Shown here: positions 24,201 through 42,303 of the stretch, in pieces | Layout: each line of letters starts with the position of its first letter | Numbering within the stretch: position 1 is the stretch's first letter | Source of the DNA: Acidimicrobiales bacterium | GTDB taxonomy: Bacteria; Actinomycetota; Acidimicrobiia; Acidimicrobiales; Aldehydirespiratoraceae | Direction of reading: 5' to 3' | Assembly (NCBI GenBank): GCA_029263215.1 | Contig: JAJCXY010000003.1 | Coordinates: forward strand, 62,001-126,000 | Length of the DNA: 64,000 nt | The notes under the pieces: generated by a model | Database searches by the model: none | The model's input: only the letters and a program-made list of their open reading frames with translations | Told to the model about the DNA's origin: nothing | Position numbers and translations under genes: made by a program

Positions 24201-25385
24201 CTAGAAGCCGATGGAGTCGTCGATGTATTCGTTGGTCACGATGTCGGCAGGAGTGACATCAGCCGGGAAGTCCATGTCGGCCGCAGCCAACTGATCAATG
24301 ATGTCCTGGATCCGGTCGGTGTCCATATTGCCCACGGTGCCATCAGGACCATTGCTCACCAGACCAAGCTCCACCTGAGTCTCGATCGAGAAATCAGCCA
24401 GCGCCAGGTCGTAGACCCAGAAGTCGGCGTACTGCTCAACGGCATCAACAATGATGTCGTTGGCATGACCCGGCGAAGCCGCGTAATCGATCACCGACTG
24501 CTGAATGATCGGCACGACCTGCTGCAGACAAGCATCGAGATCAGCCTGAGCATCGGGACGAATCGCGACCGTCTGGGAGTACACCTCGAAACCGGTGTCG
24601 TGAAGCAGCTGGAACTCAACCGGCTTGCCCCACTCCTCAAACACGTTCTCATAGGTGTAAGGCTCAGCCGACGCGAAGCCCTGCTGAGCAATATTGCCCT
24701 CGGAAACAAACCGGGCCGGAGAACCGTCATAAGACGGATCGACCTGATCAGCGGACCAGATCCCCTGAGCCACGAACACATCAGCGAACGTGCCACCACC
24801 GAAGATATTGATGGTCACACCCTCAGTGCCAAGATCAGCGATCGTGTCGACATTCGGGTTGGCATCAGGATCCCACATGATGATCTGAGGGTTCTTCTCC
24901 AACGGCGCCAACACCGACAACAACGGAGCCGTGTCGAGGCGCAGAACCTGAGCATCAGTAGTGGCATAACCCAGATGGATCGAATCATCGGTGTACATAT
25001 GGCTGGCCACCGGCGCAAAACCGATCGCCGGGCCACCCGTACGCACCTCAAACTCGATCCCCAGATCGACACCACCAGCCACCATCGGACCCGAAACAAC
25101 CTTGTTACCGGTGTCGACCGAATAGCCATCACCGATCAGGTTGTACAGCGCACCATGCTCAGCCTCAGGGAACCAATCCGTCTGAATCACCAACGGAGAC
25201 GGACACACAGCCGACAAACCAGCAGGTGCGTCGTCGCCGCCGTCGTCGCCGGCATCATCGCCGTCGTCGCCGCTGGCAACGTCGTCATCACCACCGGCAT
25301 CATCGTCGTCGTCGCCGCATGCGGCGGCGAGCAGGCTGAAAGCAAGCAGGACCAGCAATAGCCGGCGCCAGTTTGTGTTTTTCAT
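24201..25385 (-). CDS. ABC transporter substrate-binding lipoprotein (NMT1/SsuA-like)
   Basis: A 394-residue lipoprotein: signal peptide, lipobox LAAAC (lipidated Cys23), then a very acidic Asp/Gly linker to about residue 52. The mature domain (VIQTDWFPEAEHGALYNLIG, then VVSGPMVAGGVDLGIE) is of the NMT1/THI5-SsuA type, which captures pyrimidine-like, aromatic sulfonate or other small ring compounds outside the cell. Permease and ATPase genes follow the usual order upstream on this strand. The substrate is probably what the nearby Rieske, CodA-like and UbiD proteins degrade (inference). Confidence 0.9.
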   Translation of the reverse strand: MKNTNWRRLLLVLLAFSLLAAACGDDDDDAGGDDDVASGDDGDDAGDDGGDDAPAGLSAVCPSPLVIQTDWFPEAEHGALYNLIGDGYSVDTGNKVVSGPMVAGGVDLGIEFEVRTGGPAIGFAPVASHMYTDDSIHLGYATTDAQVLRLDTAPLLSVLAPLEKNPQIIMWDPDANPNVDTIADLGTEGVTINIFGGGTFADVFVAQGIWSADQVDPSYDGSPARFVSEGNIAQQGFASAEPYTYENVFEEWGKPVEFQLLHDTGFEVYSQTVAIRPDAQADLDACLQQVVPIIQQSVIDYAASPGHANDIIVDAVEQYADFWVYDLALADFSIETQVELGLVSNGPDGTVGNMDTDRIQDIIDQLAAADMDFPADVTPADIVTNEYIDDSIGF

Positions 25386-25430
25386 TTCCCCTCCCGGGAT
25401 AGCTACAACTTATTGGTTTGAACTGATCGG

Positions 25431-26327
25431 TCAGATTCCGGAGTCGCTGGTGTCGTGCCATTTGCCGATGGCAGCGGTCTGGATCCATCCGAAGATCAAG
25501 AACACGGTGACGCCGAGTGCCGACGACATGATCACGGCGGCCAGAAGCTGCTCACCGTTGAGATTGTTGGCGTACTTGCGAAGCAGCTGACCGATACCGA
25601 CATCGCCGAGGCCGAAGAAGAAGTCGCCCACAATCGCGCCGATCACCGAAAGGCCGGCCGAGATTCGCAGCCCGGCGAAGATGGCCGGCATCGCGGCTGG
25701 GAACATGAGCTTTCGTAGCCGAGTGAGGCGACTGGCGCGGTGCAGCGTGAAGAGGTCGTGCATGCCTCTCTCCGCCGACTGGAGTCCGAACAGGGTGTTC
25801 ACGATGATCGGGAAGAGGGAGATGATCACGCACACGACCACCCGTGACTTCTGCCCCGTTCCGAACCAGAACGAGATGAGAGGCACGATCGCCAAGATGG
25901 GGATGGCCTGGAGCGTGACCATGAACGGGAACACGGCCCTCTCGACCACCTTGGCCTGGCTCATGAGGGTGGCAAGCGCGAATCCGATCGTGATCGCGAT
26001 GGCGAGACCGATCATGGCCACCCTGGTGCTCGACCAAAGGCCCGAAAGGATCTCTGAGAAGTTGTCCCAATCGAGGAAGCCGACTTCGATGACCTGATGA
26101 GGGGGGCGCAGCAGGAACCGGCGCCGCTCGTCGAGCACGCCGTAGGACACCGAGTACCACAGGCCCGCGATGAGGGCACCCATCACGAGGGGAGGGAGGA
26201 CGGTCTCGGCCAGCACTCGGGGCCGTGACTTCTCTCGGTAGACACCGGCATGCATCGTGGAGGGGTCGGCGCCACCCACGAGCGGGCTCTCGATCGCCCC
26301 GGTCTCGGCCGCTTCCTGGGTCGTCAT
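25431..26327 (-). CDS. ABC transporter permease (SsuC-like)
   Basis: A 298-residue membrane protein with about six helices. The cytosolic loop LTRLRKLMFPAAMPAIFAGL is the EAA-type motif that docks on the ATPase. LQAIPILAIVPLISFWFGTG is the conserved pore-side segment of the nitrate/sulfonate/taurine permease family. The first 45 residues are cytosolic. Its ATG overlaps the ATPase stop by four bases (ATGA). With the neighbouring ATPase and binding protein it forms a complete importer. Confidence 0.92.
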   Translation of the reverse strand: MTTQEAAETGAIESPLVGGADPSTMHAGVYREKSRPRVLAETVLPPLVMGALIAGLWYSVSYGVLDERRRFLLRPPHQVIEVGFLDWDNFSEILSGLWSSTRVAMIGLAIAITIGFALATLMSQAKVVERAVFPFMVTLQAIPILAIVPLISFWFGTGQKSRVVVCVIISLFPIIVNTLFGLQSAERGMHDLFTLHRASRLTRLRKLMFPAAMPAIFAGLRISAGLSVIGAIVGDFFFGLGDVGIGQLLRKYANNLNGEQLLAAVIMSSALGVTVFLIFGWIQTAAIGKWHDTSDSGI

Positions 26328-27076
26328 GAGTGGGCTCCCCGGAGTTGGGCCGACACTTCACCGCTGAGTTCGGCGAACGCAGCTTCGAATCTCAGCTGGG
26401 GTTTGCGGGGGTAGTCGAACGGTATGTCGAACTCGGCGACGATGCGGCCGGGTCGGGCCGACATCACCAGCACCCTGGTGCTCATGAACACGGCCTCACT
26501 GATCGAGTGGGTGATGAACAGGCCCGCGAAGCCTTCGCGCTGGAAGAGTTGCTGGGTCTCCTCGTTGAGGTGCTCGCGGGTGATTTCGTCGACGGCGCCG
26601 AAAGGCTCGTCGAAGAGAAACACCGGGGGTTGCAGAGTGAGGGTTCGCGCCAACGACGCCCTCATCCTCATCCCGCCGGAGAGTGATTTCGGATAGTGGT
26701 GCTCGAAACCGCTGAGCCCCACCATATCGATCGCATCTTGGGCCAGGCTGCGTCGTTCGTCTTTGGCTATGCCGTGGAGCTCGGCGAAGAGTTCGACATT
26801 GCTCAGGATCGTTCGCCAATGCAACAGGGTGGCGTCCTGGAACACATAGCCGATGCGTTCGCGGTCGACCGAGACATGACCCGCTGTGTTCTCGAGTAGT
26901 CCCGACGCGATCTTCAAAAGGGTGGACTTCCCACAGCCCGATGGCCCCACCACCGTCACGAATTCACCGCGATCGACCGAGAAGCTCACATCCTGGAGAG
27001 CCTCGGTGCCATCGGGGAAGATCATGCCAATGTCCTCGAATGACAGGGCTTTGGTCGTAGTTGAAGCGGCAGTCAA
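26324..27076 (-). CDS. ABC transporter ATP-binding protein (SsuB-like)
   Basis: A 250-residue ATPase with Walker A GPSGCGKST (44-52), a Q-loop in YVFQDATLLHW, signature LSGGM (132-136), Walker B LFDEP (154-158) and the switch histidine in ITHSISEA. It energises import by the adjacent permease and lipoprotein. The start is TTG, five bases after GGGGGA. It is the first gene of the importer operon, divergent from the TIGR03792-type gene. A TAGTAT box (27107-27112, minus strand) could be its -10 element. Confidence 0.93.
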   Translation of the reverse strand: MTAASTTTKALSFEDIGMIFPDGTEALQDVSFSVDRGEFVTVVGPSGCGKSTLLKIASGLLENTAGHVSVDRERIGYVFQDATLLHWRTILSNVELFAELHGIAKDERRSLAQDAIDMVGLSGFEHHYPKSLSGGMRMRASLARTLTLQPPVFLFDEPFGAVDEITREHLNEETQQLFQREGFAGLFITHSISEAVFMSTRVLVMSARPGRIVAEFDIPFDYPRKPQLRFEAAFAELSGEVSAQLRGAHS

Positions 27077-27497: not shown

Positions 27498-28304
27498 TCA
27501 TCGAGATGCCCCCAGGATCGCGGCAGCTCGTTCGACAAGGGGGAGCGCGTCGCCGTCGCCGTCATTTAGATCCACCAGATTGATTCCGATCGCGGCGGGA
27601 TTCCACCGGCGCGCCTCCGCGTTCAGAAAGCCACCCACCTCCGCCCACCGGGAGACCGACGGCGAGACGACGACATCACTCGCGGATTGATAGATGGCGA
27701 CATCTATGGGCAGCTCGGCCTGCTGTAGGGGCGCAATGATGGATCCGTGCTGATCCGGCGTGCAGCCGCTCAAGAAGACACCATCGGCCAACCGGGCAGC
27801 GAGGCGCGCCATCTGGGCACCACGCGTCCCGACCCAGAGCGGAACATCGCGCCGAGGATTGGCGTGTGCAACCGGCTGGTAGCCGTCGGTCGCCTCGCCG
27901 GTGAGTACAGCCCGAGCGAGGACAACAGCGTCACGGACCTCAGCCACGGGCCGATCGGTCGAAAGCCCAAACGGCCCGAGGGAGTTCTGTCCTCCCACCC
28001 CCAAGCCGAGAGTGAACCGCCCACCGCTCAACTCGTCGACAGTGGCAGCCGTCGCGGCAATCGCTCCGGGATGACGAAGCAGCGGGGAAGTGATCCCCAC
28101 ACCCAGCCGAATTGTCGACGTTTCGCGAGCGGCTGCCGCCAAGATTGCCATTGGCTCGCGAGCGATGCCTTCATCGCCGATCCATACCTCGTCGAGCCCG
28201 AGTTGCTCCGCCCTCACGACCGCTTCCACGAGGTCCCCCGCCGCGACCGACGGAAACATCCAGATGCCCTTGCGAGGTTCGCCCCGATCTGCTGTCTCTC
28301 CCAT
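27498..28304 (-). CDS. F420-dependent LLM-class oxidoreductase, short form
   Basis: A 268-residue member of the luciferase-like family related to the proteins at 17063 and 31571, with IRLGVGITSPLLRHPGAIAA and VDELSGGRFTLGLGVGG. It is about 60 residues shorter than those two at the C-terminus and may be a compact form. It presumably uses F420 or a flavin. It ends eight bases after the convergent TIGR03792-type gene and is divergent from the flavodoxin-fold gene at 28393. Confidence 0.8.
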   Translation of the reverse strand: MGETADRGEPRKGIWMFPSVAAGDLVEAVVRAEQLGLDEVWIGDEGIAREPMAILAAAARETSTIRLGVGITSPLLRHPGAIAATAATVDELSGGRFTLGLGVGGQNSLGPFGLSTDRPVAEVRDAVVLARAVLTGEATDGYQPVAHANPRRDVPLWVGTRGAQMARLAARLADGVFLSGCTPDQHGSIIAPLQQAELPIDVAIYQSASDVVVSPSVSRWAEVGGFLNAEARRWNPAAIGINLVDLNDGDGDALPLVERAAAILGASR

Positions 28305-28392: not shown

Positions 28393-28911
28393 GTGGTGAG
28401 AACACTTGTGCTGCACGCCCACCCTCTCGAAGAGAGCTACAGCGTTGCCATACGAGACATAGTCTGCGAAGCACTCGACGCCGACGGCGTCGATCACACA
28501 CTCATCCGACTCGATCAGGGCGAGGAACCGAACCTCCCCGGTGAGCAATATCAGCATCTCGTCGCGGTATACCCCACCTGGTGGGGCGGTCCGCCCGCAG
28601 TCATGCTCGACTGGCTCCAGTGTCTGCTCACGCCCTTCGTCGACGCAGACGAACCGCCGTCGGCGTCTCCGTTTCGTTCGGTCCGGAGAGTCTCTGTGAT
28701 CAGCAGCCACGGCTCCTCGCTCTTGATGAACCGGATGCAGGGCCAGCCCGGCAAGCAGACCTGGCAACGGGTTGTGATCCCTCTCTGCCACCCCGACGCG
28801 GTCTTCGACTGGATCCCCTACTACAAGATCGACCGCAGCACCGAAGAGGAGCGAGCCGCGTTTCTCGACGAGTTGCGCGCCCGTCTCACCAACGCGCCAG
28901 TGCCCGCCTGA
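28393..28911 (+). CDS. Flavodoxin-fold NAD(P)H oxidoreductase-like protein
   Basis: A protein of about 172 residues of the Flavodoxin_2 type (NQO/MdaB-like). VRTLVLHAHPLEESYSVAI is the FMN/FAD-phosphate start of the family, and YPTWWGGPPAVMLDWLQ is the flavin-ring loop. It probably reduces a quinone or other electrophile. GTG 28393 or 28396 is chosen because TACCCT (28382-28387) just upstream suggests a leaderless start; the frame is open further upstream without homology. Its last 26 bases overlap the end of the convergent gene. Confidence 0.8.
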   Translation: MVRTLVLHAHPLEESYSVAIRDIVCEALDADGVDHTLIRLDQGEEPNLPGEQYQHLVAVYPTWWGGPPAVMLDWLQCLLTPFVDADEPPSASPFRSVRRVSVISSHGSSLLMNRMQGQPGKQTWQRVVIPLCHPDAVFDWIPYYKIDRSTEEERAAFLDELRARLTNAPVPA

Positions 28912-29446
28912 CCTTTGCGGTGTCGGACGATCCGGCAGCCACCGACACGAAGGTTCGACGGCAGAGCGGGTGACAGCTGAGGCGGATGTTCCAGGTGGTG
29001 GTGCGACGACCCGCGTCGCGAGCGCGCCGGGTGGGTCTCGACCCGTGGACCGTGGTGGTGATGGCGCCGAGCCTTCGAATGTTTCGCATTCCCGGGCGGA
29101 CCCGTTCCTTGTCGTCGAACACGAAGGCCACCCCGGGCACGAGTACCCGCTCGAGCCAACTCTTCAGGACCGCAGGGGTGGTGAACAGGGTCGTGGGGTA
29201 GCAGAAGAGGAGGGCATCGGCAGCCTTCAGGGCGGCGGCGTCTTCGATGGTCTCCTCGGCAATCAGCGGGGTTTCCTCGTGGTAGACGGCGCGCTCCTCA
29301 AAGGACATGAATTTCTCGAAGGGCCCTCCCGCCAACACGCGATGGACCACATCATGACCACCGTCGCGGAGGGTGGAGAGGGCCTCGTCGACCACGCCAC
29401 GATCGGGTGAGTCGGCAGGGAATGCGTCAAGCAGAAGGACCTGCAT
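28886..29446 (-). CDS. Flavodoxin-fold NAD(P)H oxidoreductase-like protein, second copy
   Basis: A 186-residue Flavodoxin_2 protein: MQVLLLDAFPADSPDRGVVD, then CYPTTLFTTPAVLKSWLERV and VRPGMRNIRRLGAITTTVHG. Like its convergent neighbour it should carry FMN or FAD. It is the last gene of the large minus-strand catabolic array; its ATG overlaps the stop of the pteridine-reductase-like gene by one base. The 3' ends of the two flavodoxin-fold genes overlap by 26 bases. Confidence 0.82.
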   Translation of the reverse strand: MQVLLLDAFPADSPDRGVVDEALSTLRDGGHDVVHRVLAGGPFEKFMSFEERAVYHEETPLIAEETIEDAAALKAADALLFCYPTTLFTTPAVLKSWLERVLVPGVAFVFDDKERVRPGMRNIRRLGAITTTVHGSRPTRRARDAGRRTTTWNIRLSCHPLCRRTFVSVAAGSSDTAKVRRALARW

Positions 29447-30201
29447 CAGTCACCGAACCTCTCGCGAACATGACCCCACCGTTCGCCGCCGTCGACGGTG
29501 ATGCAGTCACCGGTCACCGATGTCGAACCGGCGAGGAACCGCACCGCAGCGGCCACATCAGCCACCTCACCCCATCGCCCGGCCAGCGTCCGGCGAGCAA
29601 GCCGCTCGATCTGGGCCTCGTCGAACGACTGGGCAGGCACGGTGGGTCCGGCCGCCACCGCATTCACCGTGACCGAAGGTGCCAGCTCCACCGCCAACTG
29701 GCGGGTGAGGGCGAGGAGCGCCGACTTGGCCACCGAGTGTGCGCCCCGATCAGGCCAGGGATGCCACGCCGAGAGATCGACGATGTTGACGATGCTCCCC
29801 CGGCCTCGGTCGAGCATTCCAGGAGCCAGAAGGTTGGCCAGATGATACGGCCCGTGCAGCACAACCTCGAAGGTGGCATACCAACCCCCGTGGTCTTCGG
29901 TGGGGAACGGCGTGGGTTCGAAGTACGAGGCATTGTTCACGAGGACGTCGATCGGTCCCATCCCAGCTTCGAGTTCTCGGATCGCGCCGGCAATAGACCC
30001 TCGGTCGCGAAGATCGAGCTGGATCGCGACAGCTTCGACACCCAGCGAACGGAGCTCATCCACCGTGTGATCGGCGTCGGCTTGCGATGACCGAAAGGTG
30101 ATGGCCACGTTGGCTCCGGCCCGCGCCAATTCCAATGCGATCTCTCTACCGACGCGCTTCGGCGCACCGGTAACCAACGCGCATGCACCCTCGAGCTTCA
30201 C
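29446..30201 (-). CDS. Pteridine-reductase-like SDR with an altered active site
   Basis: A 251-residue SDR. TGAPKRVGREIA at the N-terminus fits the TGxxxRxG signature that marks pteridine reductases (PTR1/FolM) rather than ordinary SDRs. VLVNNASYFEPTPF and VNIVDLSAW also fit, the latter supplying the Asp found in PTR1. The expected YxxxK is HSVAK: the catalytic Tyr is His while the Lys is kept. It may reduce a pterin or other ring with altered proton donation, or be a binding protein. It lies between the cupin regulator and a flavodoxin-fold gene. Confidence 0.8.
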   Translation of the reverse strand: MKLEGACALVTGAPKRVGREIALELARAGANVAITFRSSQADADHTVDELRSLGVEAVAIQLDLRDRGSIAGAIRELEAGMGPIDVLVNNASYFEPTPFPTEDHGGWYATFEVVLHGPYHLANLLAPGMLDRGRGSIVNIVDLSAWHPWPDRGAHSVAKSALLALTRQLAVELAPSVTVNAVAAGPTVPAQSFDEAQIERLARRTLAGRWGEVADVAAAVRFLAGSTSVTGDCITVDGGERWGHVRERFGD

Positions 30202-30204
30202 GGG

Positions 30205-30750
30205 TCAGGCCGGTGGCGTCATCATGCAGATGAACTCGAGGGGCACGTCGCCGATCGAGTTCACCGCTTCGAGGCGACTGCTGGCGAAATGGATCGAGTC
30301 GCCATGACCGAGGATGTAGGGATCCTGATTGCGGAGGTAGATCTCCATCTGGCCGGACAGCACGTAGATCCACTCTTCGCGGGCCCGGTCGATCCTGAAT
30401 GCTCTCGACTTCTCGCCCACCGCGAGGGTGCGATGAAACGGCATCATCTGCCAGTTGGGGAAGTTGGTGAGCAACTCGACCTCAATACCGGTGTCGCCGA
30501 GGGAGGCTGGCGGCCGGCCACCGGAGCGAACGACGGGATCGCGCTCGTCAGAGCTCAGCAACTCGAAGATCGGTATGTGCAGAGCATGGGCGATGCGGTT
30601 CAGCGACGTCAGCGAAGGAGAGACCTGGTCATTTTCGAGTTGGGAGAGAAACCCGATGCTCAATTCGGTCAGCTCGGCCACTTCGCGCAGGCTCAGCTCC
30701 AGCTCGTTGCGCCGTTGCCGTAGCTCCCGTCCTACCTTCAGCTCTCTCAC
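30205..30750 (-). CDS. XRE-cupin transcriptional regulator
   Basis: A 181-residue regulator with an N-terminal helix-turn-helix (LRQRRNELELSLREVAELTE, then LSQLENDQVSPSLTSLNRI) and a C-terminal cupin domain (REEWIYVLSGQMEIYLRNQ). This architecture is common in regulators of catabolic operons, where the cupin binds a small-molecule inducer. It stands inside the operon, preceded by a 93-base gap that could contain its own promoter. It most likely controls the surrounding array. Confidence 0.9.
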   Translation of the reverse strand: MRELKVGRELRQRRNELELSLREVAELTELSIGFLSQLENDQVSPSLTSLNRIAHALHIPIFELLSSDERDPVVRSGGRPPASLGDTGIEVELLTNFPNWQMMPFHRTLAVGEKSRAFRIDRAREEWIYVLSGQMEIYLRNQDPYILGHGDSIHFASSRLEAVNSIGDVPLEFICMMTPPA

Positions 30751-30843: not shown

Positions 30844-31578
30844 TCACCGTGCCTGGTCCTCTTCACTCCACGGGTCGGTCGGCGGCTGGATCGACAGGAT
30901 GCCGAAGTCGATCGATCTGTCGGACGCGACCAGATCAGTCAGCAGCTCTCCCACCCCTGACGGACGCATCATCCGCGTTCTCACCAGCTCGGGGGCCTTG
31001 CCGTCCCAGAGCTCGGTGTCGGTCTGGGCGGGGCAGACCGTGAGTATCCGGATCCCGTGGGCGCGGCCCTCTTCGCGCAGCACCTCACCTACCGCATTCA
31101 TGCCGCCCTTCGAGGCGGCGTAGGCCGTGTTGTCTGCGAACCCCCGCAGCGCAGCCGCACTGCTGACCAGCAAGACCTGACCGCGCGACTCTCGCAGGTG
31201 TTCCCAGGCCACCCTCGTGAGGGACACGACCGATCGAAGGTTCACCTCGAGGATGCGATGCCAGAAGTCGTCGTCGGTGTCTTCGATCGGCCTCTTCTGG
31301 AACAGCCCGGCGGCATGCACCACCACATCGAGCCGGCCGAACCGCTCGACGGTTCGACCCACCAAGCGTTCGGGAGTGCCGGGCACGCTGATGTCGCCGC
31401 CAACTACCTCAGAGGCAGTGGCCAGGCTCTCGGCGACCTCGCGGAGCCGATCTTCTCGCCGTCCCGTGAGCACGATCTCGGCGCCTCGATCCGCCAGCGA
31501 CCGCGCCATCGCCGCTCCGATCCCCGAGCCAGCACCGGTGATCAAGGCGACCTGGCCGTGGAGGGCGCCCTCAAGCAT
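30844..31578 (-). CDS. SDR family oxidoreductase
   Basis: A 244-residue classical SDR: ITGAGSGIGAAMARSLADRG near the N-terminus, VVHAAGLF in place of NNAG, VSSAAALRG with the Ser, and TAYAASKGGMNAV with the catalytic Tyr and Lys. ATG 31578 overlaps the end of the upstream LLM gene by eight bases, so it is translated with it. The substrate is unknown; array context suggests a hydroxyacyl or ring-derived alcohol. Confidence 0.87.
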   Translation of the reverse strand: MLEGALHGQVALITGAGSGIGAAMARSLADRGAEIVLTGRREDRLREVAESLATASEVVGGDISVPGTPERLVGRTVERFGRLDVVVHAAGLFQKRPIEDTDDDFWHRILEVNLRSVVSLTRVAWEHLRESRGQVLLVSSAAALRGFADNTAYAASKGGMNAVGEVLREEGRAHGIRILTVCPAQTDTELWDGKAPELVRTRMMRPSGVGELLTDLVASDRSIDFGILSIQPPTDPWSEEDQAR

Positions 31579-32551
31579 TAGGAGTCCCTCCGACGATCTC
31601 GGCGATGTCGGCGAGCAGGGCCCGGTTGGCTTTGAGGCCCGGCGTGATGACGTTGACAAAGAAGCCGTCGAGTCGGTGTTGCGCGATCATCTCTTTGAGC
31701 TGTGACCGGCACTCGCCACGAGTTCCCGCGATCTGGTAGGCGCCGACCATCTCTGCGGTCACGAGCGGAGCCATGGCGCCGGCACCGCCCGAGTCGAAGG
31801 CCTCGCGCATCTGCTGCATCGTGGCGTCGTTGATCCCCAGGTTGCGCAACACGCGAGGTGGGCTGTCGAGGATGGCGTAGGCGTAGTGGGCTCTGGCCTC
31901 TTCGACCATCTCGGGAGTGAAGGCGAGACGATCGAGGTACATGAGCGTGAGGTCGCTGTGATCACGGCCGGCAGCCGTGATGGCATCAGCGAGGTCGGCC
32001 TTGGCCATCAGGACCAGCCCGTCAGCTTTACGCCCCGCGAGCTCGAGAATCCGCTCGCCGCGAGCAGCCACCCAGATCGGTATCGATTGGGCACCGTGAC
32101 TCAGCTGGGCACCTTCGAGCCGTGTTCGTCGTCCTTCCCACTCGACCGCCTCACCACTCCACAGGGCCCGGAGGACCTCGATCGTGTCGTCGACAACGGC
32201 GAGGGGCGCCTCGCGCTCGATCCCCATCGGATGCAGCACCATGGTGCCGCCGGCCACGAGGGTGATGAAGGCCCGGCCCTCGCTCAGCTCGTTGACCGTG
32301 GCCACCGCCGCTGCGGTGGCTGCGGGATGACGGGTGTAGCCATTGGTGACCACGCCGAGGCGGATCGTGTCGGTGACACCGGCGGCCGCGCCCAGCGCCA
32401 CGTACACGTCCTGCATCAGGCCTTCGTCGGCCACCATGCAGTAGCCGTAGCCAAGCTCCTCGGCCGCGCCGATCGTGTCGACGAGCTCAGCGATGGGCAT
32501 GACCGGAACCAGCTGGAGACCCAGAGCGAAGGAGGCGGGGTCCGCGCTCAT
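31571..32551 (-). CDS. F420-dependent LLM-class oxidoreductase, Mer-like
   Basis: A 326-residue luciferase-family protein close in layout to the one at 17063: LGLQLVPVMPIAELVDTIGA, then IRLGVVTNGYTRHPAATAAA and VNELSEGRAFITLVAGG. The family includes Mer, the F420-dependent methylene-tetrahydromethanopterin reductase. It lies two genes from the Mch homologue in the same operon, which raises the possibility of a pterin C1 substrate (inference). Its ATG overlaps the upstream SDR stop (ATGA). Confidence 0.86.
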   Translation of the reverse strand: MSADPASFALGLQLVPVMPIAELVDTIGAAEELGYGYCMVADEGLMQDVYVALGAAAGVTDTIRLGVVTNGYTRHPAATAAAVATVNELSEGRAFITLVAGGTMVLHPMGIEREAPLAVVDDTIEVLRALWSGEAVEWEGRRTRLEGAQLSHGAQSIPIWVAARGERILELAGRKADGLVLMAKADLADAITAAGRDHSDLTLMYLDRLAFTPEMVEEARAHYAYAILDSPPRVLRNLGINDATMQQMREAFDSGGAGAMAPLVTAEMVGAYQIAGTRGECRSQLKEMIAQHRLDGFFVNVITPGLKANRALLADIAEIVGGTPNA

Positions 32552-33339
32552 GTCGGCCCCGCCGCGAAGTCGCCGTTGGCGGAGTAGCCCCCGTCGACGC
32601 CGAGGACCTGGCCGGTGATGAACCGCGCCCGGTCAGACAGCAGAAATACCACGGCGTCGGCGACCTCGTCGGGGGTGGCGAGGCGCCCCAGGGGGATCCG
32701 CGCCTCTATCTGATCCACGGCCAACGCACCTGTGGCCGCCAACTCCTGGATGGTCTCGGTGGCCACGTGACTGGGGGACACGGCGTTCACGCAGATGCCC
32801 GCCGAGCCCCACTCGAACGCGAGGGCTCGCGTCATCGCGTCCATCCCGGCTTTCGCCGTTCCGTACGCCGCCTTGCCGAACATCGGGTGGGTGCTGCTCA
32901 CGCTGCTGATGTGCACGATGCGTCCACCAGAGTTGAGCTCTCTTCGCGCCCGGGCGAAGGCCTGCGACACGAAGAAGGCGCCATTGAGACCTACGTGGAT
33001 CACCTCGGCCCACTCGGCCGGGTCCTGATCGATGGCCGGCGCCTCTCGGAAGAGGGTGGCGCAGTTGACGAGCAGATCAGGATCGATGGGGCCGGAGCTC
33101 GCCGCGAACAGTCCGGCACACCCGGCTGGATCTGAGATGTCGACGGCGGCGGACTGGGCGACCCCTCCCGCGGCCCGGAGCTCCGCCACGGTGGTCTCGG
33201 CCAGATCGACGTTGAGATCGGCAACCGTGACGGTGGCCCCAGCCGCGCTGAGCGCCCACGCGCACCGGCGCCCGATGCCCTGCGCGCCGCCCACGACAAC
33301 GGCGTGGTGCCCGGCGAGGTGGGGGTCGATCGTGCTCAT
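32548..33339 (-). CDS. SDR family oxidoreductase
   Basis: A 263-residue classical SDR with VVVGGAQGIGRRCAWALSAA, VNCATLF (a changed NNAG), HISSVSSTHPMF and AAYGTAKAGMDAM (Tyr and Lys present). The C-terminal ITGQVLGVDGGYSAN is the standard ending. ATG 33339 gives the normal length; the frame is open upstream across the end of the Mch gene. It is located 13 bases after the Mch homologue, so it probably works with the product of that enzyme. Confidence 0.88.
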   Translation of the reverse strand: MSTIDPHLAGHHAVVVGGAQGIGRRCAWALSAAGATVTVADLNVDLAETTVAELRAAGGVAQSAAVDISDPAGCAGLFAASSGPIDPDLLVNCATLFREAPAIDQDPAEWAEVIHVGLNGAFFVSQAFARARRELNSGGRIVHISSVSSTHPMFGKAAYGTAKAGMDAMTRALAFEWGSAGICVNAVSPSHVATETIQELAATGALAVDQIEARIPLGRLATPDEVADAVVFLLSDRARFITGQVLGVDGGYSANGDFAAGPT

Positions 33340-33352
33340 GAGCGGGCGAACA

Positions 33353-34312
33353 TCATCGCGGGAAGAACGATGTTTCGAGCACGTCGTGGTTGATGCTCCC
33401 CGCACTGAAGGTCTGGCCGGTGGTGAGGTTGTTGAGGTGGACTTCAGCGGGCGAATGCAACTCGATGGGGATCTCGTAGAAGTCTCGGCCCGCGTCCTCG
33501 TAGATCTCGATGAAGGGGCGCCCGTAGGCATCGCATGCCGATGCGATCACCTTCGGCGCGATCTCGGCGCAGAGCTCGTCGGTGCTCTCCACCGCGATGT
33601 TGGCGATGCCACCGTAGAGAAGGCTGTCGTTGATCCGCCCCATCGAGAGGAGGTCGTCGTCGACGAGCGGAGGTATCACCCCGAAGCCGTAGGCGTGCCG
33701 TAGGCAGCGGAGATCCATGCCCTCCTCAGCCAGCCTGTGCAGGGTCTGCTCGACGATGCGTGCTGCCACCTGCACCGCGCACACCAGGCTGCGGTTGGGA
33801 GCGATGAGCACATAGAGATCGCTCGCCGCCACCCTGCAGGAGGCCGCGATCATGTCGGTCATCTCCAGCGAGATCGGTTCGGATGCCTGGATGGCCACCA
33901 CCGACTCGTGGTGCTGATCGCGGTAGTCGGTCCAGTCGAAGTAGTGATCGGGCGGGTTGTTGAGGGCCCGGCCGGGGCCGGCGAGAATGGCCGCGTGCTC
34001 CTTGCCGGGAGCTTCCAGACGCCACCCCGCTATCTGGGATGCCACACAGGCTTCGATCGGGTGGTCGATCATCACCCTCACCGCGGTGAGCATTCGCCCC
34101 GCCACCTCGAAGGGTTCGTAGCTGACCTCTCCGAGGCCGCCGATGGAGATGAGCGTGTACAGCCTCGCCGCCCGCCAACCGCCCTTTGCCTCGAGTCCCA
34201 TGTCGATCACGGTCGCGCCGTTGGGGAGCTGCTCCACGGCGACGCCGAGGGCGTCGGCGTCGTCGATGATCTGAGGGACGAGCTTCATCGCTTCGCGATT
34301 GACACTGATCAT
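33353..34312 (-). CDS. mch: Methenyltetrahydromethanopterin cyclohydrolase (Mch) homologue
   Basis: A 319-residue protein, the normal length of Mch, which hydrolyses 5,10-methenyl- to 5-formyl-tetrahydromethanopterin. It matches the family along its length: VNREAMK at the start, LPNGATVID (29-37), SQIAGW (92-97), AGPGRAL (111-117), VQVAARIVE (180-188), MGRINDSLLYGG (224-235), YGRPFIEIY (263-271) and DFYEI (277-281). Arg185 and Glu188 align with the conserved catalytic Arg-x-x-Glu as I recall it. ATG 34312 follows AAGGAG. No fae, mtd, fhc or other H4MPT gene is seen in the window, so the real substrate may be a related cyclic amidine. It sits between two SDR genes. Confidence 0.9.
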   Translation of the reverse strand: MISVNREAMKLVPQIIDDADALGVAVEQLPNGATVIDMGLEAKGGWRAARLYTLISIGGLGEVSYEPFEVAGRMLTAVRVMIDHPIEACVASQIAGWRLEAPGKEHAAILAGPGRALNNPPDHYFDWTDYRDQHHESVVAIQASEPISLEMTDMIAASCRVAASDLYVLIAPNRSLVCAVQVAARIVEQTLHRLAEEGMDLRCLRHAYGFGVIPPLVDDDLLSMGRINDSLLYGGIANIAVESTDELCAEIAPKVIASACDAYGRPFIEIYEDAGRDFYEIPIELHSPAEVHLNNLTTGQTFSAGSINHDVLETSFFPR

Positions 34313-34340: not shown

Positions 34341-35114
34341 TCACGCTGGGCCCGCCTCGCGGGCGCCGAGGCCGGCGTCGACGGGGAGAACGGCTCCGTT
34401 GAGGTAGCTGGCCTCCGGCGAAGCGGCGAACAGGACGGCGGCCATGAGTTCCTCCGGTCGACCGAATCGTCCGCCGGGGATGTAGCTCTGCACAGCATCC
34501 TGGATCTCGGGGTCGGGCATCCCTGCCAGCAGAGCTTCGGTGGCGATCAGGCCCGGAGCAACCGCGTTCACCCGGATGCCATGGGGTGCGAGGTCGAGAG
34601 CCATGGCCCGTGTGAGTGCCTCGATGGCGCCCTTCGAGGTTATGTAGGCGGTGCGGCTGGGGATGGCGAGGCGGGCGAGGATCGAGCTGAGGTGGACGAT
34701 GACTCCCTCGATATTCCGCTCGACCATATCGGCCGCGATCCGTTGGCTCAGCTGGAACACACCTCTCACGTTGGCGTGCCATACGGACTCGAACTGGTCG
34801 AGCGAGACGTCGAGAAACGATGACCGATCGATCATGGCGGCGTTGTTGACCAGGATCGAAACCGGGCCCAACGTGTCTTGAACGGCACTTGCGAGGCGGT
34901 CTACATCGGCGATCACTCCGACGTCGGCCTGGAACACCTCCGCGGTGCCACCAGCGCCATCGATCGCGGCCTTGGTGGCGAGGGCCCCGGACTCGTCGCT
35001 GCGGTAGTTGATCGCCACCCGCGCACCCTCGCCGGCAAAAGCTGTCGCAGTAGCGGCACCGATCCCCCGCGAGGCACCGGTGACGATGACGGTCTGGCCT
35101 GCGAACCGGTTCAT
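34341..35114 (-). CDS. SDR family oxidoreductase
   Basis: A 257-residue classical SDR: VTGASRGIGAATATAFAGEG, ILVNNAAMID, VHLSSILARLAI and RTAYITSKGAIEAL, all active-site residues intact. It is of the FabG/3-oxoacyl reductase type and likely cytosolic. Its ATG overlaps the stop of the E2 gene by four bases, and it is followed 28 bases later by the Mch homologue. Confidence 0.9.
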   Translation of the reverse strand: MNRFAGQTVIVTGASRGIGAATATAFAGEGARVAINYRSDESGALATKAAIDGAGGTAEVFQADVGVIADVDRLASAVQDTLGPVSILVNNAAMIDRSSFLDVSLDQFESVWHANVRGVFQLSQRIAADMVERNIEGVIVHLSSILARLAIPSRTAYITSKGAIEALTRAMALDLAPHGIRVNAVAPGLIATEALLAGMPDPEIQDAVQSYIPGGRFGRPEELMAAVLFAASPEASYLNGAVLPVDAGLGAREAGPA

Positions 35115-35824
35115 GAGTTTCTCCCTGGGGTTTCGCGAAGTGACGCGGCATCAGCCATCGAGGCATCGAGATCGAGAAGGAACCTCGCCGCGGTCGCTCC
35201 ATCGATGAAACGGTGATCGTAGGTGAGTCCGAACCAGCACAGTGAGCCGACAACGGGGGCTCCATGCTCATCGGGCACGAAACGTTCGCGCGTGCGACCC
35301 ACCAGCAGGATGGCGCCTTGGGGTTGGGGAGGTATGGCGAATCCTCCATCGATTCCGAACATGCCCAGATTCGAGACCGTGAAGGTGCCGCCCTCGATGT
35401 CTTCGAACTTGAGCTTTCCCTCGCGGGCCTTGTCGGCGAGGCGCGCCACGGCATCGTCAAGTTGGTCGAAGGAAAGCTGGTCGGCACCGTGGACGATGGG
35501 CACGACGAGGCCTTCGGGTACCGAGACGGCCACACCGAGGTTGGCCCGGTCAGAGACAATGACGTCGCGGCCCTCCAGACGCCCGTTGAGCATGGGATGA
35601 CGCGCGAGCAGTCGTGCCACTGCAGCCATGACGTAGGTGTTGATTGATGGCCGCGTCGGTAGGGACTCGCGGTCGGCGAGAACAGAAGTCAGGTCGATTT
35701 CGCGGGCGACCTGGCTCAACGCCGCAGTCGACACCGCGTGGGTCATGGACTTCACCATGGCCTTCTGGAGGCGGGTCAGACGGTGGGCTGTCTCACCCTG
35801 GTCAGCGGCCGACGCCTCCGCCAT
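35111..35824 (-). CDS. 2-oxoacid dehydrogenase E2 acyltransferase, catalytic domain only
   Basis: A 237-residue protein equal to the catalytic core of dihydrolipoamide acyltransferases. It begins near RLTRLQKAMVKSMTHA and carries the active-site TYDHRFIDGATAARF (His204, Asp208), with SNLGMFGIDGGFAI and the trimer core in between. The lipoyl and E1/E3-binding domains that precede this core in normal E2 proteins are absent; the lipoyl domain is a separate protein encoded just upstream. It transfers an acyl group from lipoamide to CoA. Confidence 0.9.
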   Translation of the reverse strand: MAEASAADQGETAHRLTRLQKAMVKSMTHAVSTAALSQVAREIDLTSVLADRESLPTRPSINTYVMAAVARLLARHPMLNGRLEGRDVIVSDRANLGVAVSVPEGLVVPIVHGADQLSFDQLDDAVARLADKAREGKLKFEDIEGGTFTVSNLGMFGIDGGFAIPPQPQGAILLVGRTRERFVPDEHGAPVVGSLCWFGLTYDHRFIDGATAARFLLDLDASMADAASLRETPGRNS

Positions 35825-35827
35825 CGA

Positions 35828-36097
35828 TCAGGCCCCCCGGATCTGGGAAGCCTCGGCCTCATCGGCGGCGATGATGGCGAGCACGGTTCCGACATCAACA
35901 GTGTCGTCCTCCTCAACGAGGATTCGAGCCACCACTCCCGCACAAGGCGCCTCGAGCTCGTTCTCGACCTTCTCGGTCTCGACCTCGGCGATGAGCTCAC
36001 CCTCCACCACGGTGTCGCCCTCCTCCACGTGCCAGGCCACCACCGTGCCGTCCTCCATCGTCAGCCCCCACTTGGGAAGAATCACGTTGGTGCTCAT
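35828..36097 (-). CDS. Stand-alone lipoyl carrier domain
   Basis: An 89-residue single lipoyl domain. VILPKWGLTMEDGTVVAW is the first half-repeat; the modified lysine is Lys43 in EVETEKVENELEAP. It carries the acyl group between E1 and the separate E2 catalytic core. There is no peripheral-subunit-binding domain. Its ATG overlaps the E1-beta stop by four bases, and its stop is three bases before the E2 gene. Confidence 0.92.
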   Translation of the reverse strand: MSTNVILPKWGLTMEDGTVVAWHVEEGDTVVEGELIAEVETEKVENELEAPCAGVVARILVEEDDTVDVGTVLAIIAADEAEASQIRGA

Positions 36098-37134
36098 CGG
36101 CTCGCCTCCATCGTGGCCCGAATCGCCGTTGCGATATCGGTCTCATCGGGAAGTACCTCGTGCTCCAGGGGCACCGAGAACGGAATCGGAGCATCGAGTC
36201 CGTCGACCCGCCCCACGGGTGCAGACAGCTCCGAGAAGCACTCCTCGTGGATGCGGGCACTCAGCTCGGCGCCGAGCCCGCCGATCTTCGGGGCTTCGTT
36301 GGCCACCACCGCACGACCGGTCTTGGCGACCGATTCAAGGAGGGTCTCGGCGTCGTAGGGCCGGATGGTGCGAAGGTCGATCACCTCGACCGAGACACCC
36401 TCGGCCTCGAGTTCCTCCGCCGCGGTGAGCGCCATCGGAACCATTCGCATGGTGGCGACAACGGTCAGGTCGGTGCCGGTTCGAGCTACGGCGGCCTTTC
36501 CGAGCGGCGTGGTGTAGTAGCCATCGGGGACATCACTGCGGGCTCGATAGAGGGCCTTGTGTTCGAGAAAGAGCACAGGGTCATCGGATTCGATGGATGC
36601 CAACAGGAGTCCCTTGGCGTCTGCGGGATTCGAGGGAGCGACGATCACGATCCCGGGCACGTTGAGGAACCAGCCCTCGACACTCTGGGAGTGGTGTGGG
36701 CCTCCTCCGAAGCCACCACCGCACGCCGTACGGATCACGAGTGGGGCGCTGAACTGGCCGTCGAACATGTAGCGGACCTTGGCCGCGTTGTTGACGATCT
36801 GGTCGTAGCACTCGCCTAGGAAGTCGGCGAACATGATCTCGGCGACGGGTCGCATCCCCACCATGGCGGCACCGACACAAGTGCCGATGATCGCCGCTTC
36901 GGAGAGCGGAGTGTCGCGCACTCGCTCGGCTCCGTACTTTGCCCAGAGCTTCCTGGTGACGCCGAAGTCGCCACCCATCTCCGCGATGTCCTCCCCGATC
37001 AGGAACATCTCATCGAAACGGTCCATGCCTAGATCGAGAGCGTCGTTGAGGGCCTTGGTGAAGCTGGTCTTGCGCGGCTTCTTGGGTCGGGCGTCCGATG
37101 GGGCCGGATTCGCATCGAGTTGGGTGTCGTTCAT
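36094..37134 (-). CDS. TPP-dependent 2-oxoacid/acetoin dehydrogenase E1 beta subunit
   Basis: A 346-residue transketolase-like beta subunit: FTKALNDALDLGMDRFDEMF, LIGEDIAEMGGDFGVTRKL, DTPLSEAAIIGTCVGAAMVG (with the catalytic Glu region) and GGGFGGGPHHSQSVEGWF. With the alpha subunit it decarboxylates a 2-oxo acid or cleaves acetoin and passes the acyl group to lipoamide. The start overlaps the alpha-subunit stop by four bases. An N-terminal basic Lys/Pro segment of about 30 residues is an extra. Confidence 0.93.
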   Translation of the reverse strand: MNDTQLDANPAPSDARPKKPRKTSFTKALNDALDLGMDRFDEMFLIGEDIAEMGGDFGVTRKLWAKYGAERVRDTPLSEAAIIGTCVGAAMVGMRPVAEIMFADFLGECYDQIVNNAAKVRYMFDGQFSAPLVIRTACGGGFGGGPHHSQSVEGWFLNVPGIVIVAPSNPADAKGLLLASIESDDPVLFLEHKALYRARSDVPDGYYTTPLGKAAVARTGTDLTVVATMRMVPMALTAAEELEAEGVSVEVIDLRTIRPYDAETLLESVAKTGRAVVANEAPKIGGLGAELSARIHEECFSELSAPVGRVDGLDAPIPFSVPLEHEVLPDETDIATAIRATMEASR

Positions 37135-38108
37135 CGACCGCCGACCTCCCACTGGGCGTACACATCGGCCGTGGCCTTGACGAGGTCGGGCGGCGGACTC
37201 TCCTTGGCGAACGCGATCCACTCTGCGATGAGCGCGTGCTGCTGTTGCTCGATCGCCGCTAGTTCGTCGGCGTCGACGCCGCGATCGATGAGTAGTTCGT
37301 CGGTCATCAGGATCGGGTCGTGGTCCTCGCGCCAGTACTTGACCTCGGCTTCGGGGCGGAACTCCCCGGCGAAGATCCCCTGCCATCGCCAGGTCTTGAA
37401 CTCGAGGAAGTACGGACCCTTGCCGGCCCGGATATGTCCGATGGCTTTCGCCACCGCATCGTGGGAGGCCACGATGTCGTTCCCGTCGACCTGTTCGCAA
37501 GGGAAGCCGTACCCCCTCGCGAGGTCGACGATGTCGGCCGAGGCGTGGCCTTCGCCCACCGGCGTGGCGATGGCGTAGCCGTTGTTGACACATGCGTAGA
37601 AGACCGGCAGGTCCCAGATCGCAGCCATGTTCAGACTCTCGTGAAACTCACCGCGACCCACCGTGCCGTCGCCCAGCACTGCGCAGGCCACCCTGGACTC
37701 ACCACGCATTTTCGCGGCGAGAGCCACTCCGAGCACCGTGACCAGATAGGAACCCTCTACCGCGTTGTCGCCGAAGTTGCCGACACTCGGATCTGCAGAA
37801 TGCAGGCTCCCGCCCTTCCCGCCACACACCCCGGTCGACTTCGCGAAGAGTTCGGCCATGATCCGTTCACCGTCGCCCTTGTGGCGCTGTTGGGCGAGGG
37901 CGTTGAGCCCATGGCAGCGATGATCGGGGAAGAAGGCATCGCTTGCCTTCAGATTGTTTGCCAGCGCAGCCTGGGTGGCCTCCTGGCCGAGCCCGGTGTG
38001 GAGCATCCCGGGCACGTTGCCCTGTTCGAACTCAGCTTCGAGTCCCTGCTCAAACGCTCGGATCAGCCACATGTCTCGGTAGAGATCGAGCAGTTGTTCG
38101 CGTTCCAT
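37131..38108 (-). CDS. TPP-dependent 2-oxoacid/acetoin dehydrogenase E1 alpha subunit
   Basis: A 325-residue alpha subunit. The TPP-binding motif is GDGTVGRGEFHESLN through CVNNGYA (GDG at about 146-148, NN 26 residues later). HTGLGQEA, FPDHRCHGL and GKGGSLH are the conserved substrate and cofactor segments; the last is most typical of acetoin dehydrogenase. ATG 38108 follows AGGGG. A 100-base gap precedes it, so a promoter is likely there. No E3 gene is adjacent; the cell's general dihydrolipoamide dehydrogenase would be needed. Confidence 0.93.
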   Translation of the reverse strand: MEREQLLDLYRDMWLIRAFEQGLEAEFEQGNVPGMLHTGLGQEATQAALANNLKASDAFFPDHRCHGLNALAQQRHKGDGERIMAELFAKSTGVCGGKGGSLHSADPSVGNFGDNAVEGSYLVTVLGVALAAKMRGESRVACAVLGDGTVGRGEFHESLNMAAIWDLPVFYACVNNGYAIATPVGEGHASADIVDLARGYGFPCEQVDGNDIVASHDAVAKAIGHIRAGKGPYFLEFKTWRWQGIFAGEFRPEAEVKYWREDHDPILMTDELLIDRGVDADELAAIEQQQHALIAEWIAFAKESPPPDLVKATADVYAQWEVGGR

Positions 38109-38111
38109 CAA

Positions 38112-38211: not shown

Positions 38212-38994
38212 TCAACTCAGGATCAGTCCGCCGTCGACCTCGATCGCCTGGCCCGTGAGGTAGCGGGCGTCGGCGCTGGCGAGGAAGGCGATCACGCCGG
38301 CGATCTCCTCGGGTTGGGCCAGACGCTTCAGCGCGGTGTCGTTGGCTCGCATCTCCAGCCACTCCTCGCCTGTCATGTCGAGCGTGGCTCCGATCTCCAC
38401 GGCGACCTTGCGCACCATCTCGGTGACGGTGTTGCCCGGGCACACCGCGTTCACCGTGATGCCGGCGGGGCCGAGCTCCATCGCCGCCGACCGAGTCAGC
38501 CCGATCACGCCGCTCTTGGTGGCGGAGTACTCCGCCGAGTTGGGCCAGCTGGTCTTGCCCGCCATCGACGAGATGTTGACGATCGTGCCGCTGCCCTGGT
38601 CGATCATGATCGGTGCGACGAGGCTGTTGGATGTGAGAACTCCGGTGAGGTTCACCGCCACGAGGTTCTCCCACCGATCGAGAGGCACCTCGGGCAACGG
38701 TCCTCCGACGTACATCCCCGCGCTGGCCACGAGGACATCGACTCGGCCCCAGCGTTCCATTACCTCGGCGATGGCAGCCTCCTGGTCCGGGCGCGATCGC
38801 ACGTCGCAGGTGACTGCGATGGCGTCGCCGCCCTGTTCCGCAGCCAAGACCGCGGTGGACTCGTTCTTCGTCGTCTCGATATCGAGACACGCAACCCGGG
38901 CGCCCTCAGACGCGAAGCGGACAGCTGAGGCGTGTCCGATGCCGGTGGCGGCTCCGGTGATGACCACAACCTGCTCGTGGAATCGATGAGTCAT
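38212..38994 (-). CDS. SDR family oxidoreductase
   Basis: A 260-residue classical SDR: VVITGAATGIGHASAVRFAS, VLVASAGMYVGG (NNAG changed to ASAG), VNISSMAGKTSWPNSAEYSA with the Ser and Tyr, and the Lys in TKSGVIGL. The ending YLTGQAIEVDGGLILS is typical. ATG 38994 overlaps the stop of the Fe-alcohol dehydrogenase gene (ATGA), so the two dehydrogenases are made together. Confidence 0.9.
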   Translation of the reverse strand: MTHRFHEQVVVITGAATGIGHASAVRFASEGARVACLDIETTKNESTAVLAAEQGGDAIAVTCDVRSRPDQEAAIAEVMERWGRVDVLVASAGMYVGGPLPEVPLDRWENLVAVNLTGVLTSNSLVAPIMIDQGSGTIVNISSMAGKTSWPNSAEYSATKSGVIGLTRSAAMELGPAGITVNAVCPGNTVTEMVRKVAVEIGATLDMTGEEWLEMRANDTALKRLAQPEEIAGVIAFLASADARYLTGQAIEVDGGLILS

Positions 38995-41037: not shown

Positions 41038-42303
41038 TCAATAAATGCCATAGGCATCGTCGTTGCCCTGACGGGAAATGGTGCCTGCCCGAACCCCTTC
41101 ACACACTTCGATCAATTCGGTGACGAACCGGGCGATCAGTGCATCATCATGCTGGGTGCTGAGCATGAGCAGGAGGGACTCCGGCTCGGTCTGGAGGTTG
41201 AGCATCCACCCCTTGGCCATCAAGCCGTCTCCGACGGCCATCATGTCGAGTTCGTCTGAGCCAAACGAGAAGTGAACCCCCTCGGGTTCCCCGTGCACGG
41301 CGAGCCCGTCGAGGCCGTTGATCGCAGCCACGATCTGGTCGGTCGCCTCGAGCGTCATCGCCATCCTCTCCAGGTAGCCGTCGTATCCGAGATAGCGCAT
41401 GACCGCCCATGCAGATGCCACCGGTCCGGCGTTGCGCGAGCCGGCCACGGTGTCGCTGTCGTACCGTCCGGCCGGCCAGACACTGGAGCTGAAGCTCTGG
41501 AACTCGCCGAGAGAAGCGTCTCGGAGGATCACGGCCGAACAGCCGCGAACCGCGTAGCCGTACTTGTGATAGTCGATCGACATCGATCGAACGGCTGGGA
41601 GCCTGAAATCGAACATGGGCACGGGGCGCCCCATCGCCTCGGCGAACGGTAGGACGAAACCACCGATGCAGGCATCAACGTGGAGCCAGATTCCGTACCG
41701 AGCGGCGACTGCCGCCATCTGGGGTATCGGGTCGACCAGTCCGTACGGAAACGGTGGCGCCCCACCCACCATCATGATGGTGTTCTCGGTGATGCAGGCC
41801 TCGAGGGCATCAACGTCGGCTCGATAGTCGAGGCTGTGCGGGACCTGAACGACCGTCAATCCGAGCGCGTAGGCAGCCTTGTTGAATACAGGGTAGGTGG
41901 CGTGGGTGAGCAGGATCTCAGGGTCCCTCACATCGGGTCGATTCTTTCGTGCTTCCTCGCGAGCCGTCCTCATCGCCAGGAAGAGGCTCTCGGAGCCCCC
42001 CGTGGAGACCGTGCCGCGAGCATCAACGGGAGCGTTGAGAAGCGTCATCACGAAATCGAGCACGTCGGCTTCGTACCGCTGGACACTGGGATGCAGTCCG
42101 TAGCGATGCGTGACGTTGTCGCCGATGTGCTTGACGAACGCTTCACGGGCAACCGCAGCGACGTCGTCGCCCGCGAAGTAGGACGCGGCGAAATTGAGGG
42201 GACTCGTCCAGTGGATGTCGCCCCCGCGTCCTGCCTCAATGTCGTTTTCGACATCGGCCCACGAGCGCCCGGTGAGCTTGTCGCCGAAGGTTCTTTCAGC
42301 CAT
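41038..42303 (-). CDS. PLP-dependent decarboxylase/lyase (group II, sphingosine-phosphate-lyase-like)
   Basis: A 421-residue fold-type I PLP enzyme. DYHKYGYAVRGCSAV holds the PLP-binding Lys; the HKYGY form is shared with glutamate/tyrosine decarboxylases and sphingosine-1-phosphate lyase. STGGSESLFLAMRTARE is the cofactor-phosphate segment, and LHVDACIGGFVLPFAEA supplies the Asp that contacts the PLP ring nitrogen. It may decarboxylate an amino acid or cleave an amino alcohol phosphate. ATG 42303 overlaps the end of the upstream M20 gene by eight bases. Confidence 0.88.
   Translation of the reverse strand: MAERTFGDKLTGRSWADVENDIEAGRGGDIHWTSPLNFAASYFAGDDVAAVAREAFVKHIGDNVTHRYGLHPSVQRYEADVLDFVMTLLNAPVDARGTVSTGGSESLFLAMRTAREEARKNRPDVRDPEILLTHATYPVFNKAAYALGLTVVQVPHSLDYRADVDALEACITENTIMMVGGAPPFPYGLVDPIPQMAAVAARYGIWLHVDACIGGFVLPFAEAMGRPVPMFDFRLPAVRSMSIDYHKYGYAVRGCSAVILRDASLGEFQSFSSSVWPAGRYDSDTVAGSRNAGPVASAWAVMRYLGYDGYLERMAMTLEATDQIVAAINGLDGLAVHGEPEGVHFSFGSDELDMMAVGDGLMAKGWMLNLQTEPESLLLMLSTQHDDALIARFVTELIEVCEGVRAGTISRQGNDDAYGIY

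Follow-up and report, generated by a model that had tools for sequence, protein, structure and literature searches.

A lineage-specific Mch-family protein in a conserved catabolic gene module of Acidimicrobiia, with a possible role outside C1-carrier metabolism

Results

An Mch-family gene in a tight operon with a split 2-oxoacid dehydrogenase

The window, a 64,000-nt stretch of an Acidimicrobiales genome within which all window coordinates below are positions, carries on its minus strand a gene of the Mch (methenyl-tetrahydromethanopterin cyclohydrolase) family, together with the following genes:

24201..27076, minus strand: ABC importer (ATPase 26324-27076, permease 25431-26327, putative binding protein 24201-25385)
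27498..28304, minus strand: LLM2, second LLM-class oxidoreductase
28886..29446, minus strand: Flavodoxin_2-fold protein, conserved with the module
29446..30201, minus strand: SDR with PRK09134 and pteridine reductase as nearest NCBIfam models, both below cut-off, and FolM as second-best PDB match
30205..30750, minus strand: HTH-cupin regulator of the XRE family, found in window-type loci
30844..31578, minus strand: SDR_B, conserved module member
31571..32551, minus strand: LLM1, Mer-like luciferase-fold oxidoreductase
32548..33339, minus strand: SDR_C, immediately downstream of Mch in loci of the window type
33353..34312, minus strand: Mch-family protein, 319 aa, with catalytic Arg185/Glu188 (ATG at 34312, stop at 33353)
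34341..35114, minus strand: SDR_D, glucose/butanediol-dehydrogenase-like SDR, beside Mch in nearly all related loci
35111..35824, minus strand: E2 catalytic domain (2-oxoacid_dh) that lacks a lipoyl domain of its own
35828..36097, minus strand: stand-alone lipoyl-domain protein, 89 aa, with an ETEK lipoylation motif
36094..37134, minus strand: E1 beta of a TPP-dependent 2-oxoacid/acyloin dehydrogenase
37131..38111, minus strand: E1 alpha
38212..38994, minus strand: SDR_E, with an 83% ortholog within the 40-kb cluster of genome G301

The genes from E1 alpha through SDR_B are packed into a tight minus-strand operon, with several junctions overlapping by 4 bases. The preliminary description of this DNA had placed Mch between SDR genes, next to a split 2-oxoacid dehydrogenase and a Mer-like oxidoreductase, and this picture is borne out, with the refinement that the dehydrogenase (E1 alpha, E1 beta, lipoyl, E2) includes the separate 89-aa lipoyl protein, whose top NCBIfam match is acetoin dehydrogenase E2. 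Searched against the PDB, LLM1 finds Mer as its best match (133 bits; next family 45), but it scores below the Mer equivalog cut-offs (165 vs 348.7 and 182 vs 276 bits; TIGR03555/PRK02271).

Related loci also conserve the ABC importer next to the Mch module; a thiamine-like assignment of the importer was dropped because its putative binding protein matched nothing in Pfam or NCBIfam at the cut-offs applied. The pteridine-reductase-like character of the SDR at 29446-30201 may hint weakly at a pterin substrate, but as proof of one this gene was set aside, pteridine reductase scoring below cut-off and the top PDB matches being a mixture of FabG and FolM; its paralog d26 is not FolM-like. An MfnA-like decarboxylase at 41038-42324, considered as a link to methanofuran, was likewise rejected, with 201.6 bits against a cut-off of 299.4 and no match in related loci.

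The protein retains the Mch fold and catalytic pair

The match to PF02289 (Pfam MCH) spans the full length of the protein (343.6 bits, E 1.3e-102, cut-off 25), which also aligns over its entire length with the solved Mch structures 1qlm, 4fio (Methanobrevibacter ruminantium) and 4gvq (A. fulgidus), phmmer giving 239 bits against the M. kandleri enzyme 1qlm. A structure model of low confidence (pLDDT 63.5), built with 20 close sequences and used for fold only, returned in Foldseek significant PDB matches that were all Mch (E 1e-30 to 1e-26; next 0.07), the best six each with E < 1e-25. The NCBIfam equivalog TIGR03120 scores 288 against its cut-off of 228.8, so that this profile alone is unable to separate the window protein from true Mch. 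Arg185 and Glu188, equivalent to R183 and E186 of A. fulgidus, are kept in 30/30 clade members, and dN/dS against relatives is ~0.10-0.20, indicative of purifying selection. The Mch homologue announced by the preliminary description at exactly these coordinates is thus confirmed: retained catalytic residues and fold both favour membership, and to judge from its sequence the protein belongs genuinely to the Mch fold family and is probably catalytically competent. In the Mch reaction a methenyl bridge, an amidinium, is hydrolysed to an N-formyl product.

Fixed substitutions set the clade apart from canonical Mch

Thirty clade members were compared with 14 canonical Mch proteins, comprising three archaeal proteins from the PDB, ten from plasmid records, and the protein of another actinobacterium (G351). 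The canonical set has 41 invariant columns, 26 of which (Arg, Glu and 24 others) are kept in 30/30 clade members. Seven are each replaced by one fixed residue in 30/30 (G108L, S109A, E140Q, T171N, P210V, T225I and F280H, in A. fulgidus numbering), and the remaining 8/41 hold mixed residues within the clade. With 13/41 canonical invariants changed in the window Mch, and 11-13/41 broken in the four clade members tested by leave-one-out (the window protein and three others), the claim that all the main motifs are present holds for Arg185/Glu188 but was otherwise too strong; canonical bacterial and PDB archaeal (methanogen/Archaeoglobus) controls break 0-3 columns. From their closeness to conserved motifs, the changed residues are inferred to line the substrate pocket. 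Two further proteins also depart from the invariants: a Mch paralog from genome G094 (L028) breaks 9/41 columns, and a haloarchaeal Mch from a Natronorubrum bangense plasmid (L034), on a very long branch, breaks 8/49 while retaining the seven positions that are fixed-different in the clade. Pocket change by itself is therefore no proof of a non-pterin substrate.

A single clade within Actinomycetota

A scan of one genome per species yielded 25 further Mch loci with 74-85% identity to the window Mch, all labelled as Acidimicrobiia (or sub-taxa) or as Actinomycetes/Actinomycetota MAGs; genomes with Mch are mostly MAGs, and genes in the related loci were called by a simple ORF/conservation picker rather than a trained gene finder. 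PF02289 was present in 5/298 genomes of the order sample, and in a phylum sample of 397 genomes G351 was the sole additional match. The phylogeny that had been proposed for this protein was run, and it splits the clade together with L028 from canonical Mch (support 100/98), on long branches. On this sequence evidence the window Mch is a lineage-specific form belonging to one clade. A literature search found no paper on this Acidimicrobiia Mch gene.

In G094 (contig C100, L045:5110-7096), the second Mch paralog, 36% identical, adjoins an LLM gene at a site where the E1-lipoyl module is absent. This LLM is the sister of LLM1 (SH-aLRT 90), which indicates that the Mch-LLM pairing was retained through divergence. 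In G351 (L050, G351:C5:71000-86083), Mch lies within a canonical-looking H4MPT/Fhc methylotrophy island with MtdB-, Fhc- and CitG-like genes, named here from a reading of the sequences; H4MPT C1 metabolism therefore exists in Actinomycetota, but is rare.

A conserved module travels with Mch

The order E1alpha-E1beta-lipoyl-SDR-Mch-SDR-LLM1 is kept in ~25 loci, and E1 alpha, E1 beta, SDR_D, Mch and LLM1 recur jointly across related loci. E1 beta orthologs occur in exactly the same 5/298 genomes of the order as Mch (Fisher p 5e-11, a value that overstates independence because one family accounts for four of the five genomes, and one genus for three); co-occurrence with Mch thus partly reflects shared ancestry. 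E2 is present in window-type loci and undetected in most loci of the sponge/marine type.

Over ~7.8-9.2 kb of the 20-kb loci L009-L026, E1 alpha, E1 beta and usually a stand-alone lipoyl protein were found, with adjoining E2 undetected. Directly upstream of the Mch operon, sponge/marine-type loci (L019 and similar, 0-7 kb) carry a KS-domain fragment, an ACP and a PPTase-like protein, and the same region holds amidase, Rieske oxygenase and flavin reductase genes. As a clue to function, the amidase, Rieske, flavin reductase and PKS/PPTase genes were set aside, being absent from window-type loci.

Linked aminohydrolase and molybdenum hydroxylase genes

A second gene set is linked to the module. 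Its member d0, located in the window's own genome (G000) at C51:24693-26051, is a COG0402-type aminohydrolase with 5'-deoxyadenosine and 8-oxoguanine deaminase as nearest models; pterin deaminases presumably belong to the same aminohydrolase family. A pterin deaminase degrades folate in Variovorax (PMC9513972). Orthologs of d0 were found in 11/11 Mch genomes tested (67-100% identity; next paralog <=39%), the G094 copy being a fragment at a contig end beside the Mch locus, and in 25/298 genomes of the order. Orthologs of d3, a xanthine-dehydrogenase-type molybdenum hydroxylase, occur in 23/298, namely all five genomes with Mch and 18/293 others.

In G301 (contig JAERSO010000136.1, L060/L061), the Mch and d0/d3 modules share one 42-kb contig as a cluster of ~40 kb, which also encodes an FAD subunit, an SsnA-like aminohydrolase, XdhC, further LLMs, an FGGY kinase, a DhnA-type aldolase, a 2-hydroxyacid dehydrogenase and a creatininase-family protein. 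In the window's own genome (G000), the d0/d3 half lies on contig C51 at ~15.5-34.9 kb (L058/L059). There, YqeB (292.9 vs 220) and YqeC (163.1 vs 73.05) are above cut-off and accompany a molybdenum hydroxylase whose large subunit falls below the TIGR03313 cut-off (671.6 vs 1101.9). YqeB and YqeC are markers of selenium-dependent molybdenum hydroxylases and have been tested in purine catabolism (PMC11448449). On C51, genes of this type (YqeB, YqeC, SsnA-like, XdhC) are tied to aminohydrolase and LLM genes in an actinobacterium.

Tested H4MPT genes are absent from Mch-bearing genomes

A genome-wide search for β-RFAP synthase, Fae and FTR/FhcD, which the preliminary description had suggested, detected none of the three in the 16 Mch-bearing genomes (0/16 each). 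In an Azospirillum plasmid record serving as positive control, Fae and FTR were both detected, and the RFAP synthase of this record scores above the TIGR00144 cut-off. No H4MPT gene was seen adjoining Mch in the related loci. Although G000 is 94.8% complete, absence was uniform in 16 genomes, which makes an assembly gap improbable and classical H4MPT metabolism unlikely; of the two options offered earlier, the unrecognised pterin-linked C1 pathway is largely excluded in its H4MPT form. FolD was found in 15/16 Mch-bearing genomes, so that an H4F cyclohydrolase is already supplied.

Discussion

We tentatively favour, with somewhat less than even confidence, the reading that the window Mch is a re-purposed amidinium hydrolase that has lost its H4MPT C1 role and takes part in the breakdown of an imported, pterin- or purine-like N-heterocycle. 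This reading follows from the combination of a kept catalytic pair, changed pocket motifs, missing H4MPT genes and partners that resemble enzymes of N-heterocycle metabolism. Mch is always co-inherited with two partners, a 2-oxoacid-dehydrogenase-like module and a set of N-ring breakdown genes, which probably points to a new substrate. The other earlier option, that the fold was recruited to open a different cyclic amidine, is accordingly favoured, tentatively, by the fixed pocket substitutions and the strict linkage to catabolic modules. More tentatively still, this may be an Mch-fold enzyme outside C1-carrier metabolism, acting as a ring-opening amidinium hydrolase in an undescribed aerobic pterin- or purine-type pathway of marine and sponge-associated Acidimicrobiia.

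We infer a substrate, a reaction direction and an order of steps. An imported nitrogen heterocycle, our leading guess being one with a pterin- or purine-like 2-amino-4-oxopyrimidine ring, would be deaminated by the aminohydrolases and oxidised by the xanthine-dehydrogenase-type molybdenum hydroxylase, with the SDRs and LLM-class flavin/F420 enzymes adjusting redox state. Mch would hydrolyse the N=CH-N bridge of a cyclic formamidine or formamidinium intermediate to an N-formyl product, using the Arg185/Glu188 mechanism of Mch, and the E1alpha-beta-lipoyl-(E2) module would act on a ketone or 2-oxo side chain, splitting it to give an acyl thioester. Against the heterocycle reading, it is hard to see what the E1 module would contribute to ring breakdown, and retention of a Mer-like partner suggests that the substrate may still be a C1-pterin instead of a free heterocycle.

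The strongest rival develops this last point: Mch and LLM1 would act on H4F-bound C1, processing methenyl or methylene units that the substrate gives off (a purine-derived formimino group could be one source). In Haloferax, Mch (HVO_2573) and Mer (HVO_1937) have been assigned probable H4F functions without H4MPT biosynthesis (PMC8305020), and the Acidimicrobiia likewise combine Mch with a Mer homologue where no H4MPT biosynthesis was found. The best PDB relatives of LLM1 are Mer, and Mer-like LLMs that are sisters of each other are retained beside both Mch paralogs. We nevertheless regard methenyl-H4F as the less likely substrate, though a serious candidate by analogy with Haloferax: FolD is already present in nearly all of these genomes, the clusters read show no formyltransferase, formyl-H4F ligase, GcvT or formimino-transferase gene, and the seven fixed pocket changes are absent from the haloarchaeal protein.

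A true methenyl-H4MPT cyclohydrolase (EC 3.5.4.27), using H4MPT that is scavenged or made by an unrecognised route, is improbable. Such an enzyme would fit the passed equivalog cut-off, the intact catalytic residues and the canonical H4MPT island of G351, but β-RFAP synthase, Fae and FTR are missing in 16/16 genomes, the gene context is catabolic with no H4MPT gene neighbours, and the clade breaks far more canonical invariants (11-13/41) than do canonical bacterial and methanogen/Archaeoglobus Mch (0-3). A non-catalytic Mch that partners the E1-lipoyl complex in a ligand-binding or structural role, compatible with strict E1 beta co-inheritance and several changed pocket residues, is very improbable given the Arg/Glu pair and 24 further canonical invariants kept in 30/30 and the dN/dS of ~0.1-0.2.

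In metagenome annotation the presence of Mch is taken as diagnostic of H4MPT C1 metabolism, that is, of methanogenesis and methylotrophy. As the clade passes the equivalog cut-off even though its genomes lack the tested H4MPT genes, inferring either from actinobacterial reads of this kind would be wrong. Should the re-purposed amidinium hydrolase be borne out, it would to our knowledge be the first non-C1 function of the Mch family, and a catabolic set of roughly 20 genes would be defined; a new substrate would also open a first way into a catabolic pathway that is conserved among uncultured Acidimicrobiia, and would exemplify the recruitment of a C1-carrier enzyme.

Set against known systems, the window clade shares with canonical archaeal and methylotroph Mch its full-length homology, fold, Arg/Glu pair and most glycine/proline scaffold motifs, but it is phylogenetically separate, has replaced residues of the GSGP, APT, P210, T225 and F280 motifs, and occurs in a catabolic gene context in genomes without detected H4MPT biosynthesis, Fae or FTR. 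With the haloarchaeal Mch and Mer pair of Haloferax (HVO_2573/HVO_1937) it has in common both homologues and a missing full H4MPT pathway, and with the Natronorubrum plasmid Mch a divergence from the canonical invariants; in contrast, H4F is the proposed carrier of the haloarchaeal pair, and the Natronorubrum copy keeps the seven positions in a neighbourhood without E1-lipoyl or heterocycle genes. Mer, the methylene-H4MPT reductase of the LLM superfamily, provides the only strong PDB relatives of LLM1, which nonetheless reaches 165-182 bits against cut-offs of 276-349. The E1 alpha and beta families, acetoin-dehydrogenase-like lipoyl domain and E2 catalytic domain are those of acetoin/pyruvate dehydrogenase E1-lipoyl-E2 systems, whereas here the lipoyl domain stands alone, E2 is undetected in many loci, and Mch is the operon partner. 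Finally, the C51 set resembles the XdhA/SsnA/YqeB/YqeC clusters of selenium-dependent molybdenum hydroxylases and purine degradation in its molybdenum hydroxylase, SsnA-like aminohydrolase, XdhC, YqeB and YqeC, but differs in its host phylum, Actinomycetota, and in its linkage to Mch, LLM and E1-lipoyl genes.
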